Assembly (NCBI GenBank): GCA_015228815.1
Contig: JADGCV010000029.1
Location: forward strand, 1 to 58,235
Length of the DNA: 58,235 nucleotides
DNA from: Magnetococcales bacterium
GTDB taxonomy: Bacteria > Pseudomonadota > Magnetococcia > Magnetococcales > UBA8363
Direction: 5' to 3'
The notes beneath the pieces are model-generated. The model was not told where the DNA came from and made no database searches. It saw only the letters and a program-made list of their open reading frames with translations. A program made the position numbers and the translations under genes. Position 1 is the stretch's first letter. The number at the start of each line of letters is the position of its first letter. Below are positions 27,219 to 37,181 of the stretch, piece by piece.

Positions 27219-27758
27219 TTATGCGTTTTTGTGGGGCATTCGTTGGTATTCGCGGCAAGCCATCTGCAAGGATGGAGGTGCCGGGTTGTGAAGTTCTTTC
27301 CTTCGGCACATCTCATCCAGGGAGCGAACATCGTTTCGGCAGTCTGATTCATTGTCGTAACGTCGATACTCCTCGTCCTCGTTTGTAGTCTCACCCCGCA
27401 GGTAGGCAAACCAGGTTTCGATGTTGCGCTTTGGCACGACCATCACAACAGTGTCTTGCAAGGTTTTGGGTTGCACCTTCCGTTCCCGGCATGCCCGATC
27501 CAGGGTGGCAATGCGGTCGGCAACCGACTTCGTGTCCGCATCGGTGCCCACAACAAGTACCGTATTGGAGCCATGCGCACGCTGGGCCTCAAGTTCATCG
27601 GGAAATCGTTCCCGTACCCACTGTTCACCCGAACCCCGGCCCGTCGGCGCGATCTCTGCGCGGAAGTCATGTTGCCTCCACCCACGCAGTTTCAGAAAGC
27701 GGCGAATAAAGGTTGCCATCTGAAGATCCTCGCAAAGCAGAACGATCCGGGCGCTCAT
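27219..27758 (-). CDS. TOPRIM-like protein paired with AAA ATPase (RloB/AbiL-type)
   Basis: From ATG 27758 (overlapping the ATPase stop as ATGA) the product is 179 residues. The N-terminal strand IVLLCEDLQMATFIRRFL places an acidic Glu, and VLVVGTDADTKS provides the DxD-like pair expected of a TOPRIM nuclease fold; VMVVPKRNIETWFAYL follows, as in RloB/DUF4276/DUF4435-type proteins that pair with AAA ATPases. The longer frame to 27860 lies inside the ATPase gene and was rejected. Probable effector of an anti-phage or similar conflict system, by analogy. Confidence 0.7.
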   Translation of the reverse strand: MSARIVLLCEDLQMATFIRRFLKLRGWRQHDFRAEIAPTGRGSGEQWVRERFPDELEAQRAHGSNTVLVVGTDADTKSVADRIATLDRACRERKVQPKTLQDTVVMVVPKRNIETWFAYLRGETTNEDEEYRRYDNESDCRNDVRSLDEMCRRKELHNPAPPSLQMACREYQRMPHKNA

Positions 27759-28864
27759 TTTTCCCACCCGCGCACGACCGTATCCGCCAAGGACAAACCC
27801 TGTATCGACTCGGGTGCGGCGTTGACCCGTACCGGCCCTTGGGCGTCGCGCGCCAGCCATCGACCATGAGCACCCCCCAGGTAATTGATGATCTCCGGAT
27901 GATGGGAAATCAATACGGCCTGCTCCACCGATTCACCCACGGCATCGTGCAGATTCGACAACCACGGCTGGATTTCTCTCAGGGCGAGAAAGTTGTCGGG
28001 TTCGTCGATGAACAGTGATACTCTTTCATCCTTCAATCCAAATACCAGGGTATAAAGTGCGACCAACATTTTCTGTCCGTCCGACAATTCACTGAAATCA
28101 AATGAAAGCGGTCTGCCACCGCCGGGAGGGGCAAACACTATTTTCAAGGAGCGGGTGTCCTCGCCGGATTCCTTGAGGCTCAATGAATTGAAACCAGGCA
28201 GGACTGATTTCAGTTCGCCGAGCAAAGTCACCATGGCCCCCATGTGTTCCTGTGCCAGGTGCCGATACCAGGAAACAAAGTTTTCCATGCGGTGCGACAG
28301 GCGTTCCTTCTCCCCCCGACTCTCTCGCTCCATCAGCAACGGGATGGGCCGGACCACGATCAATCTGGCCAGCTCGCGCTTGAACCGCGTCAACTTCTGG
28401 TTGTCCGGGCGCTCGTGCAATGTGCCCACCGCGGACAAATGCCAGTCGAACGGATATTGCGGTCCCAGGCTGTGGTTGTCGCGATAGAGCTGTGCCAGTC
28501 CTTCCTCGCAGGCAAACAACGGCTTGCCGTTCCAATCAAGTCGTTCCTCGGATACCCGCATGCGTCGCCGCTCGACATCGTGGTTGATGACGAGACTGTA
28601 CGCATAGTGGTCGTTTTCCGCCGTGATTTCCAGTTCGAAACGTTGCCGTTCTCCGGTCTGCCAGCGCGTGAGGTCCGTGGTGGGAAACACGTCGTGAACG
28701 CGGACATCGCCGCTGACGAACTCCTGAAGTCGCCGAAGGATGTCGAAAACGCTCGTCTTGCCCGAGCCGTTGGCGCCAAGCAGTAGATTGATCGCATCGA
28801 ACTGCAACTCGAAATTGACGAAACAGCGAAAATTGTCGATGTAGATTCGTCTCAGCATATCCAT
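27755..28864 (-). CDS. AAA ATPase of the AAA_21/RecF-SMC type, defence-associated
   Basis: The 369-residue ATPase starts IYIDNFRCFVNFELQFD with Walker A GANGSGKTS, contains a helical insert, a signature motif ELSDGQKMLVALYTLVFG, Walker B VSLFIDEPDNFLA and an H-loop AVLISHHPEIINYL. This is the SMC/OLD-like architecture of stand-alone ATPases in PARIS, AbiL, Septu and RloA-type systems. ATG 28864 or 28858 are both possible; 28903 also lies in frame. The TOPRIM-like gene is coupled to its stop. An 83-bp fragment of a second copy lies at 29408. Confidence 0.85.
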   Translation of the reverse strand: MDMLRRIYIDNFRCFVNFELQFDAINLLLGANGSGKTSVFDILRRLQEFVSGDVRVHDVFPTTDLTRWQTGERQRFELEITAENDHYAYSLVINHDVERRRMRVSEERLDWNGKPLFACEEGLAQLYRDNHSLGPQYPFDWHLSAVGTLHERPDNQKLTRFKRELARLIVVRPIPLLMERESRGEKERLSHRMENFVSWYRHLAQEHMGAMVTLLGELKSVLPGFNSLSLKESGEDTRSLKIVFAPPGGGRPLSFDFSELSDGQKMLVALYTLVFGLKDERVSLFIDEPDNFLALREIQPWLSNLHDAVGESVEQAVLISHHPEIINYLGGAHGRWLARDAQGPVRVNAAPESIQGLSLADTVVRGWEK

Positions 28865-28955
28865 TTTCCAGTCGCGATTGGATCGCCGAAAACATATCTC
28901 CACGTATTTTCAGGGCATGGTTTGTGTTTTCTCGTCACGTAGCCTTTGTCCTCCA

Positions 28956-29500: not shown

Positions 29501-29632
29501 TTGATGATTGTACCGATCCCGTCATCCAAGCGTCAATCGTTCCATCCCCGACCATTCGCCAAGCGCCACCCTTTCCGGCTTCATCCCCAAACTTCGACCT
29601 CTTTTGCGGTGTCATGAAGAATGTCGGCCAAC
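29501..29632. repeat. 132-bp direct repeat, copy B
   Basis: Partner of copy A at 27057-27188. Here the repeat contains the true 3' end of the diguanylate cyclase gene (stop at 29581-29583) and 80 bases downstream. The two copies face the same way and lie 2.3 kb apart, enclosing the AAA/TOPRIM pair, the toxin-antitoxin genes and the AAA fragment. Confidence 0.85.
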
Positions 29633-30606
29633 CTTCCTGTTCGTACCAAGTCATCGAATCCATTGACCTGGTTGCGGCCATGTTCCTTGGAAAAGTACAG
29701 CGCCTTGTCCGCCTTTTCGATCAATTCGGGAGGGAAATCGTGGCCGTTGACCATGACGAATCCAATACTGACCGTCACATGCTGGACCTGGGGAAAGTGT
29801 TGTCCGGCGATGCGTTTGCGGAAACGTTCCAGGGCGGCGCGGGCTTTTTCCTCATCCACATCCAGCAGAATGACGAGAAATTCCTCGCCGCCAAAACGAT
29901 ACAGGATGTCGGCGACACGAAACATGCATTCCATCTGCCGCGCAAACAGGATCAACACCTCGTCGCCGATGGCATGGCCGAATGAATCGTTGACCCGTTT
30001 GAAATGGTCGATGTCAAATACTGCCAGACAGGCCCCCGCTCCTCCCAACCGATTGACTCCGCCAGAATGAAAGTTGCCTTCGAGAATCGTGGAAATCGTT
30101 TCATCGAAGGACCGGCGATTGAGCAGACCCGTCAGCGGATCCTGGTCCTTGGCGCGGATGGTCCGTTCCAGATTGATGAACATGTTCCAGAACATGCGGA
30201 TGGTCATCTCATCGGCGGAAGAGAGCAGTGGCATGTCCAGGTACAGAATACTGCGGGTTTTCGATCCTTCCACCATGGCAAAGATCAACCGCTCTCCCCC
30301 ATTGGATGCAAAACGCATGAACGGCAGGGTCAGATGGCCCGCCTTGAGAAAAATCTCTTTCAGCCCAGGGATGGCTTCCATGGCGATGGACATGTTCTTG
30401 GGCGAAAGCGGTTCGTGGAAAACCGTTTCGTTGTGCATTTGTCCTGAATTTTGATCGATGATCCCTTGTTGATGAAGATCAAGAAACCGGATCGACCGCG
30501 CCGGAGTGAATTTATTCAGTGTTCGAACCAGCTGGGAAACCAGGCCGATCCTGTCACTTTGTCCAGTCATCTCAACAAGATAGGGGACGATCTCAGCGGG
30601 GATCAT
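29581..30606 (-). CDS. Diguanylate cyclase (GGDEF domain)
   Basis: The 341-residue cytoplasmic protein has an N-terminal region of about 150 residues (sensor-like, no recognised fold) and a GGDEF domain from about residue 154 (DPLTGLLNRRSF, FDIDHFKRVNDSFGHAIGDEVL). The active site is GGEEF at 239-243, and the inhibitory I-site RVAD (230-233) lies five residues upstream, so product inhibition by c-di-GMP is expected. Its 3' end forms part of the 132-bp repeat B. The ABC permease stop lies 15 bases past the cyclase start. Confidence 0.95.
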   Translation of the reverse strand: MIPAEIVPYLVEMTGQSDRIGLVSQLVRTLNKFTPARSIRFLDLHQQGIIDQNSGQMHNETVFHEPLSPKNMSIAMEAIPGLKEIFLKAGHLTLPFMRFASNGGERLIFAMVEGSKTRSILYLDMPLLSSADEMTIRMFWNMFINLERTIRAKDQDPLTGLLNRRSFDETISTILEGNFHSGGVNRLGGAGACLAVFDIDHFKRVNDSFGHAIGDEVLILFARQMECMFRVADILYRFGGEEFLVILLDVDEEKARAALERFRKRIAGQHFPQVQHVTVSIGFVMVNGHDFPPELIEKADKALYFSKEHGRNQVNGFDDLVRTGRLADILHDTAKEVEVWG

Positions 30607-30621
30607 GGTGTGAGGATCCGA

Positions 30622-32502
30622 TCATGAAGCAGGCAAGCCACCATAGGGTTTTCCTTTTCTTCTGTTTTTCCGCGGCGCCCTGCCATCACCATGCAGCAGA
30701 TCGGATGGGGCGGTCCCGGCCCGCATGGGAAGGCGAACAAGAACGAAGATGGTCACGATCACGACCACGGCAAACACCTCGCCGATGGTCATGGCGATGG
30801 CCTTCCACGGAAGAGGCAGCACCTCGAATTCATATCCGGGAGGCAACAGCCCCTTGTAATGATCGATGATCCGTCGAAAACCGTCTTCGAGCAGGTAACG
30901 AAGGCCGGGGATCATGCCGAAAACGGCAAGCATCGAGGCGACGAGTGTCGCCAGGGCCATCTGCCAGATCAACTTGGCGTAGATGCCCGACCAGCGCATG
31001 CCGCGGCTCAAGAGAATGCCATAGTGGTGTTGCCGGTGTCCGATCAGGGTTCCCACCTGGGCCAGAAGAAGGGCCCCGAGAAACAATCCAAAGGTCAGGG
31101 CATAGGCGGGAACCATCGTCGAGAGGAGATCACTCAACAGATTGAACCGGTTCAATGCATCCTGATACATCGGGTGGACGGTGAACGCGGGCAGCCCATC
31201 CCGGGTGCGCACCGAAAGAATTCCCTGGATTCCCCGGGTCAACTGCGTCGGCTCCGGGACATAGACGTGAATGGCCTCGAAGGCGGTTCCCGCTCCGGTG
31301 ACGTTCCAGGGCAGATGGATCGGATTGCCCAGGCTGTCCTGGTTCCACTCGGGACAGAGTTCCTGACGCAGGGGATTGCTGCGCGGAAAACGATGGCAGG
31401 GAAGCCACAGATTGTTTTCCTGATCATGGATCAGGGTGTCGGAATAGGGTTGTCCTTCCGCCGCCTGGCCGGTAATCTTTCCCAACCCGGGCAGAAGCCG
31501 GGGTTTGGGGCAGCGGTCCTGCCGGACCTCGGGCAGTTCCATCAAACCACTGGCCTCGACCTCGCGGGCGACGCACAGCGAAAAACCAAGTATTTCATTG
31601 ACCGGATAGATCGGGGACTTCAAACGGGCCAGATCCTGGACATTCCCACGCCCCATCTGAATGGGATCATAGATCAGATCGGGCAGATGGTGGGCGGCCA
31701 GGAGGGCATTGTAGGTGGTCAACGGAAACAGATAGGCCACCTTCTCCATCGCGGGAATATGGTCGGTCCAGCGCACCTGGAATGGGAGTGTTTTTTCCTC
31801 ATCGCCGACCATGACCTTGAGCCAGAGGGTATCGAGCAGATTGCTCAGTTTGTCCTCGGGCCGTTTTTCGGGCAGTCTTCTGAGCTTTCGCTCTTCGAGA
31901 AGCGGTTGGACCTCTTCCCGGTAGGCGCCATAGTCGAACTGCGCGGTGAACAGCGCTTCGTTGAGGACGAGGGTCAGGGGCAGGTCGCGCCATTCCCGCG
32001 CCGTCTGGGCGGTTTCCGGAGGACGGGTTGGAAATTCCTGGTCCAGATTCCAGAGGGGATCGTTGGGATAGACGGCCCAGCCGATCAGTGGAACCGTTCC
32101 ATCCCAGGCCGAGTTTCCGGGAAGGGAAATCTGTGGGCTGTTCGTGGCGATGCGGCGGTAGGGATGGACCGAAATGCCGAAGGATTCCCCAGGGACCCGT
32201 TCCTTCATCTCGTCCAGGCGTTCGAGAAGCCCGGAATGAATCCCCCCCTGGTTTTGCCAATGGGCCGTGGCCCAGATGGGAACCCCATGCGGACGCAAGG
32301 TCCCCAACAGGGCATCGGTAAACCGTTCGAGCAATCCGGCCCGGCTCCCGACCAGAAGCAAGGCCATGGCAATCACCAGGGACAGCAGCAACGTCAACCA
32401 GGAAAAATCCCGGCCCCCGTCGATACATCCGAAGCGACCGCAGTTGAACGAACGCCAATAGGCCTTCCATCCCAGGGGGATCCAAACGGGAAGCCACTTC
32501 AT
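30622..32502 (-). CDS. FtsX/LolE-like ABC transporter permease
   Basis: From ATG 32502 (GGAG eight bases upstream) the product is 626 residues. There is one N-terminal membrane helix (FSWLTLLLSLVIAMALLLVG), an extracytoplasmic domain of about 400 residues, and three C-terminal helices (PAYALTFGLFLGALLLAQ, MALATLVASMLAVFGM, AIAMTIGEVFAVVVIVTIFVLV), the MacB/FtsX/LolCE topology. Such permeases couple ATP hydrolysis to extraction or mechanical signalling across the periplasm. The periplasmic domain is much longer than in LolE and not recognised. It is the last gene of the FGE-vWA-ABC cluster. Confidence 0.8.
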   Translation of the reverse strand: MKWLPVWIPLGWKAYWRSFNCGRFGCIDGGRDFSWLTLLLSLVIAMALLLVGSRAGLLERFTDALLGTLRPHGVPIWATAHWQNQGGIHSGLLERLDEMKERVPGESFGISVHPYRRIATNSPQISLPGNSAWDGTVPLIGWAVYPNDPLWNLDQEFPTRPPETAQTAREWRDLPLTLVLNEALFTAQFDYGAYREEVQPLLEERKLRRLPEKRPEDKLSNLLDTLWLKVMVGDEEKTLPFQVRWTDHIPAMEKVAYLFPLTTYNALLAAHHLPDLIYDPIQMGRGNVQDLARLKSPIYPVNEILGFSLCVAREVEASGLMELPEVRQDRCPKPRLLPGLGKITGQAAEGQPYSDTLIHDQENNLWLPCHRFPRSNPLRQELCPEWNQDSLGNPIHLPWNVTGAGTAFEAIHVYVPEPTQLTRGIQGILSVRTRDGLPAFTVHPMYQDALNRFNLLSDLLSTMVPAYALTFGLFLGALLLAQVGTLIGHRQHHYGILLSRGMRWSGIYAKLIWQMALATLVASMLAVFGMIPGLRYLLEDGFRRIIDHYKGLLPPGYEFEVLPLPWKAIAMTIGEVFAVVVIVTIFVLVRLPMRAGTAPSDLLHGDGRAPRKNRRKGKPYGGLPAS

Positions 32503-32588
32503 GGGCTGTCTCCACAATGACGACGATTACTTTTATTATGTCTTTTCAATAGATCCATCGCCCGAGCCAGGATCGGACCGGGATGGCC

Positions 32589-33413
32589 TCACGACGTTTC
32601 CTGGGCGTACCCATCCGCTTCCCGAGGGACGGAAAATGGTTCGCGTTTTCCCCCCTTGAGACGCAGATGGCAACGATTGTTGGCCACCATCAACCAATGG
32701 GTGACCTTCGGATCCAAGGCATCGGAATGATGGTGGGTCACCCAGATCACCAGGCGGTCGCCCTTGGTCAACCAGCGATCGACCAGGTCCATGACCTCGC
32801 GGCGGGTTTCGGAGTCCAGGTTGCCCGTCGGCTCGTCGGCGAAAAGGACATAGGGATCATGGATCATCGCCTGCGCCAGGGCGACCCTCTGGAATTGCCC
32901 GCCCGACAGTTCGTTGGGATAGCGTTCCAGGAATTCCTCCGCCGTCGTCTCTTCGATGTAGGAACCATCCTCGTCCCGAAGGAGAATGCGATCCATGGCG
33001 GCATGGACTTTTCGGTCCATCTCCTCGCGGGTCAACCCGCCGAGGAGTTCCAGGGGATAGCGCAGGTTTTCCCGGATGCGCAGATAGGGGGTGAGGGTGC
33101 TGTTCTGATAGGCAAAGCCGAAACAGCGCCGACGAATGTCGGTCAGCGAGAGCGATGACGCGGCAGGATCCAGTCCCCGCGGCCCCCAGGAGGCTTGATT
33201 GCCATCGGGAAAGGTCCACCGAACCCAACCTTCCTTGGGCCGTTTGAGAAAGGTCAGGAGATAGAGGAGGGTGCTCTTGCCACTGCCGCTGCGCCCAAGC
33301 ACGGGAAGACGGCGGGAAAAGCTGTCGTCATCCAGTTTCAGCCCGCCCACATGCAGGTCGAAGACCCCACCCCAGCCGACCGTCGCCGAACGTACCTGCA
33401 AACCCCAGTTCAT
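32589..33413 (-). CDS. LolD/MacB-like ABC transporter ATPase
   Basis: The 274-residue subunit has Walker A GRSGSGKSTLL, Q-loop FAYQNSTLTPYLRIRENLRYP, signature LSGGQFQRVALAQAM, Walker B YVLFADEPTGNLDS and H-loop WVTHHHSDAL, as in LolD/MacB/FtsE. The start ATG 33413 overlaps the stop of the vWA gene (ATGA); the longer frame to 33560 is vWA-gene sequence. An insert near RILLRDEDGSYIEETTAEEF is unusual. It should energise the permease encoded 86 bases downstream. Confidence 0.92.
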   Translation of the reverse strand: MNWGLQVRSATVGWGGVFDLHVGGLKLDDDSFSRRLPVLGRSGSGKSTLLYLLTFLKRPKEGWVRWTFPDGNQASWGPRGLDPAASSLSLTDIRRRCFGFAYQNSTLTPYLRIRENLRYPLELLGGLTREEMDRKVHAAMDRILLRDEDGSYIEETTAEEFLERYPNELSGGQFQRVALAQAMIHDPYVLFADEPTGNLDSETRREVMDLVDRWLTKGDRLVIWVTHHHSDALDPKVTHWLMVANNRCHLRLKGGKREPFSVPREADGYAQETS

Positions 33414-36172
33414 GGCAGAAACTCCTGTGGAATCCAGTATCCCCGGCTGCCGCCGAAGGTGTGGGCAAAGCGGTAGTTTTTGTCCTCGCCCAGGGGTTCG
33501 GCACGGATCAGGCCGTCGATCTTGTGAATTCTGCGACCATTCTCGGTGGAGTCGGGACACAGGTGGGGACGATAGGGTTCAATCTTGAAAACGGGTTTGT
33601 TGAAATCTTTTTCGACGATTTCAAGCATTTCCTTGGAGGTGATGGCCCATGCGGCCAGGCGTCGCAGTTCGCACACCGGAACCGCGGCGACCGGAATCCC
33701 GGCGCGGTCGAGAAGGGGGGCGCCATCGGGACCGATGACGACAAGATGTCCATCTTTGTCGCGTCCCGTTTTTTCCGACAGCAAAGCATTGACGTTGTAA
33801 CTCAGGAGCGGACTGTGGTTGCGAACTGGCAGGCCACCGCGGCGCTGGGCATACTCCGCCGGCGTCTCTCCCGAGGCATCGATGGGGGGACGGCGGATTT
33901 CCTGTTGCAGGCCGACGATCAGCGCGTTGACCAGTGCCCGGCGAAGCTGGGCCTCCGGCAGGTCGAAATAGCCCTCGAAGCCGCGCAGAATGCGGATCCA
34001 CGAGGACAGGGCGCTGCTGGTGACCCAGAGTTCCTCGACCACCTTTTCATCCGCCTCGATGTAGCCGATCCGGGTGGTGTCGTAGATGCGGTGTTCACAT
34101 TGTTTTCCCAGTTCACCGCAGGCCCCCTGCTTGAGAATATGCCAGTAGACCCCGGGGACATCGACCCGCTCTCGGCGCAGGCGGTCGATGATGTTGACCA
34201 GGGCGCCACCCCCGCGAATATCGAGAATGATTTCGTCGATGAGGGCGCTGGAGCCCAGCTTTTCGACCGTCGCCACCAGCCGATGAACCAGCCCTTCCTC
34301 TCCAAGTCGCAGAAAATGATCTTCGATCTTGCTGTCCGCGGGAAGGTTTTGGGTAAGCAGATCCTTGGACTGGTTTTCAAAGTCGGCGTAGGCCTTGCGG
34401 TAGGATTCGGGATGCCGCACCTGATCGGCATGAGAAGGGGTCTGGATGAAGAACGTGACCAGATTGTCGCCCAATCCCTTGTTGCCGCGCTGCATCAGCG
34501 ATACCAGGGTCTTGCGGGAGATGGGATTGGCATATTTGGCCTTCTGGAAGGATTGACCGTAGTTTCCGGAGGCGGACCGGCTGGTCTGGTAGCCGTTGTC
34601 GCCGATGACAAACAGTATCTTCAGATTGTCGGGGCAGGGTTTGAGATCCTGACCCAGGACCTGATTGAGGCCGCCGAACAGGTTTTCCTGATAGTCATCG
34701 TCGATGTCGTTGCCCGAGACCCGGACCTGGGCGATCGATTTCTGAAAGGAATCGAAAGCGACCTGCTGCTGGGAATCGTTCAGATCGCACTGGGAAGGAA
34801 GGGGATGACCTTCGCCGACGCCATCGCCGATGCCGTTGGTGAATTCGGCATCGGCGTAGGGATCGCGATAGACGCGAAAGCCAAAACGGAACTCGGTCTC
34901 CTTGAATCCCTGGGATTTCTTGATTTTCTGGATGATTTCCTGAATGACCCCAGGCGTCCCCGGGGTGCCGCGGACGGCATCGATGAAGGGTTCCATGCTC
35001 GCGGTGGCATCGAGGAGAAAAAAGATGTCCACATGTTTTTTCGAGGACAGCGAGGTCAATCCGGGCATGATCCGCGAGGCCAGACCGGTGGAAATGGCCA
35101 CCTTGTCGTCGCTGATGCGCCGTCCCACCAGTCCCGGTCGGGCCAGGGCCACCTTGAAAAAACGCCTTTGATCGCTCGTCGCCCCGACCCCTTCGGGGGA
35201 GATGTGCCGGTTGTTCTGATCGACCATCTCCAATACCGGGATTCTCAGGGCCGATTTGAACCATTCCCGCCCACCCAGGATCGGATGGCAGGCTTTCATG
35301 TCATGGGCCACGGCATCCTTGAGTTGTTCATAGGTACACACCGTCCCCGGTCCCGAACCATCGGGGGCGACCAGGTCTTCGCGGGGACGGATGCTGAAGG
35401 CATTGTTCCACAAAAAACCATCCTTCTTGGCGACCCAGCCCAACAACTGGTCATCCTCTTCCAGACGAAAGCGGTCGGCGAGAAGATAGGATTCGCTGGT
35501 CTGATCGAAAACAAAATACATGTGAAACCGCGAAGCCCCTTCGCGACAATTGCCCTGGCCGCCGACGCAATCCTTCAATTCGGGATCCTGGAAAATCTGC
35601 ACGGTGGGCGCGGAATTTTCATCCGTGGACGGGGTGTTTTCGGTCCGGGCGGCGGTATTGGTCTTGATGAAGAATTTCATTTCCAGACCGGTATCGCTCT
35701 TGACCGGCTGGTTGCGGCAGAGAAGATCGCCGCGTGCGACCCATCCGGTGGTTTCGGGCTGTTCCTTGAAGCGAAAGGTGCGGATCTTGACCATCCGATC
35801 CGTGACATCGAGGAGTTCCGCCTGTTGATTGAATTGAAGAAATCCCGTTCGTTTGCTTCCCTGTGGATCCTGGAACAGGACCGAATCCTGACGCAGCACC
35901 CGGACCACGCCGGCCCATTGCAGTTTGTTGTCCTTCTTGAATCGGGTAAAATCGAAATCGGCGCAATTGCCCGTTCCCGGCTCCGCTCCGGCGCCCTGGG
36001 ACGGGAAAAGGGTTCCCGTGACGATAAAAGTCATTAAAAAGAAGATGATCGACAAGAGCGGAAGACGGGGGAAAATGGACAATCCCCTGGGGATCCAACG
36101 CGAAGGCATGCGGGGAACCTTTTCTGGTTTGAGACAGGTCGCTTTCGACCGGAAACCGTGGTGAACGATCAT
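33410..36172 (-). CDS. Large vWA-domain envelope protein with SH3-like segments
   Basis: From ATG 36172 the product is about 920 residues; ATG 36109 is an alternative. A hydrophobic segment (LLSIIFFLMTFIVTGTLF) acts as signal or anchor. Two SH3b-like repeats follow (ending ETTGWVARGDLLCR and LLGWVAKKDGFLW), then a vWA domain with a MIDAS motif DATAS at residues 388-392 (HVDIFFLLDATASM) and later NLKILFVIGDNGYQ. The C-terminal 350 residues, with several Cys, are not recognised. It is probably periplasmic, and coupled to the ABC ATPase gene by ATGA. Confidence 0.8.
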   Translation of the reverse strand: MIVHHGFRSKATCLKPEKVPRMPSRWIPRGLSIFPRLPLLSIIFFLMTFIVTGTLFPSQGAGAEPGTGNCADFDFTRFKKDNKLQWAGVVRVLRQDSVLFQDPQGSKRTGFLQFNQQAELLDVTDRMVKIRTFRFKEQPETTGWVARGDLLCRNQPVKSDTGLEMKFFIKTNTAARTENTPSTDENSAPTVQIFQDPELKDCVGGQGNCREGASRFHMYFVFDQTSESYLLADRFRLEEDDQLLGWVAKKDGFLWNNAFSIRPREDLVAPDGSGPGTVCTYEQLKDAVAHDMKACHPILGGREWFKSALRIPVLEMVDQNNRHISPEGVGATSDQRRFFKVALARPGLVGRRISDDKVAISTGLASRIMPGLTSLSSKKHVDIFFLLDATASMEPFIDAVRGTPGTPGVIQEIIQKIKKSQGFKETEFRFGFRVYRDPYADAEFTNGIGDGVGEGHPLPSQCDLNDSQQQVAFDSFQKSIAQVRVSGNDIDDDYQENLFGGLNQVLGQDLKPCPDNLKILFVIGDNGYQTSRSASGNYGQSFQKAKYANPISRKTLVSLMQRGNKGLGDNLVTFFIQTPSHADQVRHPESYRKAYADFENQSKDLLTQNLPADSKIEDHFLRLGEEGLVHRLVATVEKLGSSALIDEIILDIRGGGALVNIIDRLRRERVDVPGVYWHILKQGACGELGKQCEHRIYDTTRIGYIEADEKVVEELWVTSSALSSWIRILRGFEGYFDLPEAQLRRALVNALIVGLQQEIRRPPIDASGETPAEYAQRRGGLPVRNHSPLLSYNVNALLSEKTGRDKDGHLVVIGPDGAPLLDRAGIPVAAVPVCELRRLAAWAITSKEMLEIVEKDFNKPVFKIEPYRPHLCPDSTENGRRIHKIDGLIRAEPLGEDKNYRFAHTFGGSRGYWIPQEFLP

Positions 36173-36206
36173 GGAACATGTTCCTTGAATGGCGACATGG
36201 TGTGTT

Positions 36207-37181
36207 TCATGGTGCCGGGCCTGCCCTGTCCAACGACAATTCGGCGTCCATTTTGAGCGAATTTCCCGGCGGGTCAAGCGGATTGGCGGTTGGCCGGGCG
36301 GGATTCGGTATCGAGGAGGGGTTCAGGACCAGACGAAAGCCTCCCATGGCCAGCATGGGGGACATGCAGATTTCCTGTTGCTCGTCGGCGGAAGCGGTCC
36401 AATCATCGCCGCCAAGAAGAAGAAATCCGTCGGCACAGGAGGTTTGCGACCATTCGCGTGCGCCGAACAGAAGGTTTTTGGCCAATCCCTCGGCATCGAC
36501 GGCATTCATGAGGGTCTTTTGTCCCTGGCTTGCGGCATGAAGAACCGCCGCGGCCCATTCTTCACGGGTTGGCAAACGATAGTCGCAACCGGTTTTTCTC
36601 GAAAACCACTGGGCATAGTCGGTGGCCCCTTCCCAGGAAAGATGGCGGACGGAGGAATCCTGGACATCGTTGTGATCCCAATGCGTGCCGATGCGCAGTT
36701 TTCGCCGCTGCCGCTCTTCGAAGTCCTGAATGTTTTCGATCTCCTCGACATAGCGTTTGAACTGTTCCCGATCCACCTCCCGGCTTTGCAGGAGCAGGGG
36801 ATGTTCCAGAACGATGTCGGGTCGATCGTGAAATTTCATGAAGGGGGTCAGGGTGGATGATTCCTTGGGAATTTCAAAGGTTCCGGCGGGGATTTCGATC
36901 AGTGTCGGATAGAGGGGGGCATTTTGTTGTTGTTCCAGGCAGGCCTGCCACGAAATGCCCGGAGTCGGCGGTTGCAGGAGCCACAACAGACCCCAGCCGC
37001 ATCCCAGGGCCAGGAGGAAGATCACAGGGAGGGGGGGGCGGATGGGGATGGTCCGGGGAAAGCGCCACCTGGCGGGCCGGGATGTCTCTGCCTCGGACCT
37101 GGACGCGCCGGAGCGGCGAACAGCCTGAGGCCGTCGCTTGTTGTTATCGGAACGATTGAAAAAGCCCTTGCTGTATTTCAA
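36207..37181 (-). CDS. Membrane-anchored FGE/SUMF1-like protein
   Basis: The 324-residue protein has a basic N-terminus, one membrane helix (LPVIFLLALGCGWGLLWLL, about 52-70) and a periplasmic formylglycine-generating-enzyme-like domain: LIEIPAGTFEIPKE, HLSWEGATDYAQWFSRKTG, YRLPTREEWAAAVLHAA and a final MGGFRLVL. The copper-binding cysteine pair of true FGE is not evident, so it is more likely a binding or structural member of the fold (as in many SUMF1/CLec-type proteins) than a sulfatase activator. It is the first gene of the four-gene cluster. Confidence 0.8.
   Translation of the reverse strand: MKYSKGFFNRSDNNKRRPQAVRRSGASRSEAETSRPARWRFPRTIPIRPPLPVIFLLALGCGWGLLWLLQPPTPGISWQACLEQQQNAPLYPTLIEIPAGTFEIPKESSTLTPFMKFHDRPDIVLEHPLLLQSREVDREQFKRYVEEIENIQDFEERQRRKLRIGTHWDHNDVQDSSVRHLSWEGATDYAQWFSRKTGCDYRLPTREEWAAAVLHAASQGQKTLMNAVDAEGLAKNLLFGAREWSQTSCADGFLLLGGDDWTASADEQQEICMSPMLAMGGFRLVLNPSSIPNPARPTANPLDPPGNSLKMDAELSLDRAGPAP

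Follow-up and report, generated by a model that had tools for sequence, protein, structure and literature searches.

The closest described counterpart of the locus analysed here is TagQRST-PpkA, the input module of the threonine-phosphorylation pathway that controls the H1 type VI secretion system (H1-T6SS; T6SS hereafter) of Pseudomonas, via which outer-membrane damage is sensed (PMC11881912). The periplasmic part of PpkA is a target of TagR, which binds or activates it (PMC3224232, PMC6082577), and the TagRST-PpkA genes are reported to neighbour srfABC in host-associated Deltaproteobacteria (PMC3608642). Domains of the same types occur in other contexts: von Willebrand factor A (vWA) and formylglycine-generating enzyme (FGE) domains are common in MoxR-vWA ternary conflict systems (PMC7159879), and FtsZl1 (Tubulin_2)/vWA/kinase neighbourhoods were described by Makarova and Koonin in 2010 (PMC2875224). 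We analysed a stretch of 58,235 nucleotides from a Magnetococcales bacterium (contig JADGCV010000029.1 of assembly GCA_015228815.1; hereafter, the window), which encodes a four-gene operon of an FGE-like protein, a vWA protein, an ATP-binding cassette (ABC) ATPase and an FtsX-type permease. The operon is a sensor-like module related to TagRST-PpkA, with neither a kinase nor a T6SS. We favour, at roughly even chances, its function as a T6SS-free envelope-sensing relay that would operate in the manner of TagQRST-PpkA, the sensing half of the Pseudomonas pathway.

Operon organisation and predicted proteins

The four genes were confirmed as co-directional minus-strand open reading frames (ORFs) at 30622-37181, transcribed in the order FGE-like protein, vWA protein, ATPase, permease. 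About 35 nt separate the FGE stop codon from the vWA start (ATG at 36172), the vWA stop and the ATPase start share an ATGA overlap (33410-33413), and a gap of about 86 nt precedes the permease start (ATG at 32502). Large ORFs on the opposite strand, such as 33461-36037 (+), were rejected as high-GC antisense frames.

The FGE/SUMF1-like protein (36207..37181, minus strand; 324 aa) is predicted to have a short N-terminal cytoplasmic part, one transmembrane segment and a periplasmic FGE-like domain; the TTG start of its gene is kept in a close relative. It matches only the first half of the FGE-sulfatase profile (PF03781, 5e-13), and the family alignment has a single conserved cysteine near the GFR motif. 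The paired active-site cysteines of an active formylglycine-generating enzyme would presumably precede GFR.

The vWA protein (33410..36172, minus strand) comprises about 920 aa when read from its in-frame ATG, begins with a signal peptide and contains SH3-like segments. On its own it has no Pfam match; in its family, VWA_4 was found in nine of 19 members and SH3_3 in three of 19. Pfam detected no kinase domain in the protein or the family members. The AlphaFold model (pLDDT 83) contains a beta-rich N-terminal region, an I domain and a helical C-terminal region. Its residues 352-618 (34241..35041, minus strand) resemble an integrin-type I domain (Z 17.5, root-mean-square deviation 2.6 A over 178 residues). 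The motif of the putative metal-ion-dependent adhesion site is DxTxS, not DxSxS. The residues D362, T364 and S366 (numbered in the 894-aa form) are invariant in 19 vWA sequences; across 46 sequences D362, T364 and D499 are invariant, and S366 is conserved in at least 90%.

The ATPase (32589..33413, minus strand; 274 aa) matches ABC_tran (Pfam, 1e-21) and has intact Walker A, LSGGQ, Walker B and H-loop motifs. The permease (30622..32502, minus strand; about 626 aa, a single subunit) has a weak FtsX match in Pfam (0.07) and no NCBIfam match. Its AlphaFold model (pLDDT 86) has four transmembrane segments, one N-terminal and three C-terminal, that flank a periplasmic domain of about 380 residues (approximately residues 72-448 of the 631-aa form; 31174..32304, minus strand). 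The nearest solved folds are LolC/E, FtsX and MacB (Z 15-16), and the predicted structure shows a type VII ABC fold. The sequence search of the PDB with the vWA and permease families gave no match, and the PHROGs search gave nothing informative.

These results bear out what the initial annotation had observed, four tightly spaced genes on one strand with an ATGA overlap and a LolD/MacB-like ATPase with an FtsX-type permease carrying a large periplasmic domain; its interpretation is supported in part. The periplasmic location proposed there for the vWA and FGE-like proteins is among the supported points.

Comparison with the TagQRST-PpkA module

The comparison set included 20 fetched stretches around T6SS Fha genes from genomes with a strong Fha match. 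Four of these stretches, probably from Pseudomonas or close kin as judged by gene content, carry the PpkA, TagT, TagS and TagR genes in one tight operon; in the only one of them that was read throughout, PppA precedes the operon. The TagQRST-PpkA module thus combines the same four domain types in one operon (vWA, LolD-type ATPase, FtsX-type permease, FGE-like), and the PpkA-TagT-TagS order, with tight overlaps, is that of the vWA, ATPase and permease genes in Magnetococcales. In contrast, the TagR gene is last in the T6SS loci, whereas the FGE gene is first in the Magnetococcales operon; the vWA domain of PpkA is fused to a kinase, whereas the Magnetococcales vWA protein lacks a kinase and carries a signal peptide instead; and there is no PppA or TagQ beside the Magnetococcales operon.

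When all ORFs of the 20 stretches were searched with a profile of the vWA family, the four PpkA ORFs and no others stood out, with E-values from 1.6e-5 to 7e-4 and a next best value of 2. In hhalign comparisons with single proteins, the vWA family scored 93.5 and 97.0% against PpkA, 0.9% against YfbK and 3.6% against a TerY-like vWA. When protein thirds were compared, the vWA domain scored 97.1% against PpkA, and the reversed control 0.5%. Both PpkA and the Magnetococcales vWA family match VWA_4 weakly, and a TssR_VWA match is shared by PpkA with two diverged relatives. These profile comparisons show that the vWA domain of the operon is specifically related to that of PpkA. The initial annotation had described the operon as having no known counterpart; given the shared domain types, the vWA-ATPase-permease order and the related vWA domain, this description has to be withdrawn.

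Several observations weigh against the relay. In the comparison of thirds, the SH3 part aligned with PpkA in register and without significance, and the C-terminal part had no match. The ATPase scores 128 bits with MacB, 127 with LolD and 103-111 with TagT, and the permease matches the FtsX core only, TagS and LolC alike. A diverse FGE profile matched TagR in hhalign (89%, E-value 2.4e-6) and weakly in hmmsearch (0.03), and the hhalign match could be explained by the FGE fold alone. TagS is smaller, 398 aa in all against 631 aa for the Magnetococcales permease, whose periplasmic domain is the larger. The operon encodes no kinase, phosphatase or TagQ-like lipoprotein, the search for TagQ having covered the operon. 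On these comparisons, the domain types, gene order and vWA relationship are shared with TagRST-PpkA, and the ATPase, permease and FGE-like protein appear no closer to TagT, TagS and TagR than to LolD, LolC and generic FGE proteins.

The operon as a strict T6SS accessory was rejected: none of the 48 Magnetococcales genomes has TssB, and TssK is missing from the source genome. With no kinase on the vWA protein and no T6SS in the order, the operon is not a member of the TagQRST-PpkA pathway. The srfABC-TagQRST-PpkA neighbourhood likewise has a kinase, unlike the Magnetococcales operon; a link to srfABC was dropped since no SrfB match was found, but the control also gave none. In the literature searched, which was open-access and limited, we found no description of a T6SS-free four-gene module.

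Occurrence in Magnetococcales and other Proteobacteria

When named genomes were scanned, the close relatives of the source genome (4.2 Mb, 99% complete) proved to be metagenome-assembled genomes (MAGs) of Magnetococcales. Of the 48 Magnetococcales genomes, 43 encode the vWA protein, normally once, and the operon is thus a near-universal single-copy feature, core to this order of magnetotactic-type bacteria. All 15 loci that hold the four genes have them in identical order and on the same strand. Between families, the vWA proteins are 55-65% identical; the vWA protein and the ATPase are the slowly evolving members, and the FGE-like protein is the fast one (25-38% identity). The retention of the vWA protein, the fixed order and the identity between families make the association of these genes more than chance. 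In one Magnetococcales genome (G028), the vWA C-terminus, ATPase and permease also occur as an additional, diverged copy (locus L076, G028:C45, 8878-12606).

In several Magnetococcales families the operon adjoins the TrmH and HflKC genes. In the window, a gene for a GGDEF diguanylate cyclase (29581..30606, minus strand) lies 15 nt downstream of the permease stop; it adjoins the operon in two relatives of the same genus and was not found there in other families. Further downstream, at 27219-28903 (minus strand), an AAA_21 ATPase gene is followed by a gene for a 213-aa protein. PADLOC gives this pair a HEC-01A-like match (2.5e-22, with PDC-M25A scoring higher) and a weak HEC-01B match (0.001), and it is a possible two-gene defence candidate.

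The phylum searches detected the system only in Magnetococcales and one other genome. The pattern scan of genome contigs found many more diverged copies, so that absence from the phylum samples is weak evidence. The alphaproteobacterial copies include those of Limibaculum, Amylibacter, Palleronia, Loktanella, Pinisolibacter, Pseudorhodoplanes, and MAGs of Rhodospirillaceae and Azospirillaceae, with Rhodobacterales among the holders. The gammaproteobacterial copies come mostly from giant sulfur bacteria (Thiomargarita, Thioploca, Venteria, Parabeggiatoa, Thiosymbion). In Sagittula stellata the genes lie on a conjugative plasmid in the order FGE, a secreted protein termed X, vWA, ATPase, permease; coiled-coil genes and a MotA/TolQ/ExbB gene come next, and all four families are matched there in blastp. 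Among plasmids, the search with the vWA protein found only Sagittula, and the search with the permease found none.

Protein X (490-1070 aa, no Pfam match; e.g. L075 8571-11777, A10) often precedes the vWA gene outside Magnetococcales, in 19 loci against none in the Magnetococcales neighbourhoods. A profile search did not find it in Magnetococcales, with a weak profile and no positive control. By eye, its C-terminal region appears Rossmann/vWA-like.

The genomic context of the relatives differs between lineages. Seven alphaproteobacterial loci (L035, L087, L088, L089, L090, L115, L117) share Tad/Flp pilus genes (TadE, Tad, RcpC, CpaF-type ATPase); in L087 the gene immediately after the permease encodes the CpaF-type ATPase. 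In Magnetococcales, a Tad partner was rejected, as RcpC gave a single match, below the cut-off. In Thiomargarita, the FGE domain is joined via a transmembrane segment to a cytoplasmic Ser/Thr kinase, and the locus adjoins PP2C and TerY-like vWA genes. The feature shared with the FtsZl1 neighbourhoods is a tubulin-like sequence directly upstream of FGE in two sulfur-bacteria relatives, a Tubulin_2 protein detected by Pfam in Venteria (L122) and a truncated ORF that resembles one by eye in Parabeggiatoa (L144). A tubulin-like partner in Magnetococcales was rejected: 47 of the 48 genomes lack a Tubulin_2 gene. The remaining one has a 1540-aa frame with a Tubulin_2 match (L145, G017:C188) and no detectable vWA gene. 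In a sponge-associated MAG (L128, 1851-17973), FGE, X, vWA, ATPase and permease are followed by TIR and nSTAND-WD40 proteins, and the locus looks as if the module had been joined to a conflict system. The N-terminal region of its FGE protein is caspase-like by eye.

Possible functions of the operon

A role in the envelope, as the initial annotation had proposed, agrees with the periplasmic vWA and FGE-like proteins encoded beside an FtsX-type pump in a conserved operon. In favour of the sensing relay are the domain types, gene order and vWA relationship shared with TagRST-PpkA, the kinase fusion in Thiomargarita, the lack of T6SS in the order, the near-universal retention and the presence of canonical LolCE elsewhere in the source genome. 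In such a relay, the vWA protein, secreted, and the FGE-like protein, anchored in the membrane, would form a periplasmic receptor pair, by analogy with the action of TagR on PpkA. The ATPase and a permease homodimer would make a mechanotransmitter of the LolCDE/MacB type, coupling the receptor to cytoplasmic ATP. It could move or reset the receptor upon a change in the outer membrane or periplasm, or carry the receptor signal inward; stimulus, signal direction and output are all inferred.

Because Magnetococcales have no T6SS, such a sensor would have to report to something else. Two candidate outputs are a kinase-FGE protein from another locus and, in the source genus, cyclic di-GMP made via the adjacent GGDEF gene. 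The source genome has about ten Ser/Thr kinase matches, and two of these proteins, on other contigs (L077, 595-2367; L078, 295-2412), also match the FGE profile (7.5e-18 and 1.7e-22); judged by these matches, they are possible partners in trans. The Thiomargarita fusion of FGE to a kinase, together with the kinase-vWA fusion of PpkA, means that both periplasmic parts are seen kinase-fused, one per system. In Thiomargarita, this fusion would give the signal access to a phosphorylation pathway.

The main rival to the relay is a substrate-handling pump, a tentative and less probable reading in which a second Lol/MacB-like machine would extract, export or assemble a specific lipoprotein or other protein of the envelope, while the vWA and FGE-like proteins would serve it as chaperones or adaptors in the periplasm. 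The operon shares its permease fold and ATPase family with the type VII ABC systems LolCDE, MacB and FtsEX, and the fold of the permease nearest to LolC/E and MacB, as well as the ATPase scores, highest with MacB and LolD of the proteins compared, agree with a pump. So does the position of the alphaproteobacterial copies within Tad/Flp clusters, with the CpaF-type ATPase gene after the permease gene, which fits an assembly role. However, the neighbourhood comparison revealed no conserved candidate substrate beside the Magnetococcales operon, RcpC of the Tad system is not found above the cut-off in the order, and the vWA domain is PpkA-like and not that of a known transporter adaptor. The operon also differs from the type VII systems in having a single permease gene, a separate ATPase and no lipoprotein-release signature. 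It is not the canonical Lol system itself, because LolCE is encoded separately: the LolC/E family cut-off is passed by a protein on another contig of the source genome (G000:C30), not by the operon permease. Nor does it have the make-up of MacB, which is one chain; the operon ATPase and permease are encoded by separate genes.

An unlikely alternative is mechanotransmission in peptidoglycan remodelling or division, as in FtsEX-EnvC, where the ABC motor would activate a periplasmic partner to remodel the wall or build an order-specific envelope structure. Bacterial SH3 domains often bind the cell wall, and SH3_3 in some members of the vWA family, FtsX among the nearest folds (Z 15) and the order-wide retention, which suggests housekeeping, are consistent with it. 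But the operon has no hydrolase or EnvC-like gene, the periplasmic domain of its permease is far larger than in FtsX, and it is kinase or pilus genes that accompany the relatives. A conflict or defence system with vWA and FGE as in the MoxR-vWA ternary systems, a possibility raised by the initial annotation and favoured by the TIR and nSTAND-WD40 proteins downstream of one distant relative, is very improbable: the near-universal single-copy chromosomal retention (43 of 48 genomes, not patchy) disfavours it, the ATPase is of the ABC type with no MoxR AAA+ partner, no nuclease or toxin gene is present, the proteins are periplasmic, and PADLOC gives no match beyond a generic ATPase.

The TagRST/PpkA-type sensor may, and we put this forward as a speculation well below even chances, be an older free-standing envelope-damage module that was wired to different outputs by lineage: Pseudomonas would have connected it to T6SS, Rhodobacterales to a Tad pilus machine, the giant sulfur bacteria to a kinase-phosphatase/tubulin-like system, and Magnetococcales to some core response. 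Its retention without T6SS hints at a sensor that is modular or that predates the weapon. As related parts are kept order-wide without the secretion system, the sensing step would be open to study apart from the weapon, and the T6SS-free set may help address how Pseudomonas senses incoming attack via TagQRST-PpkA. The Magnetococcales, in turn, gain an order-wide envelope system for testing.

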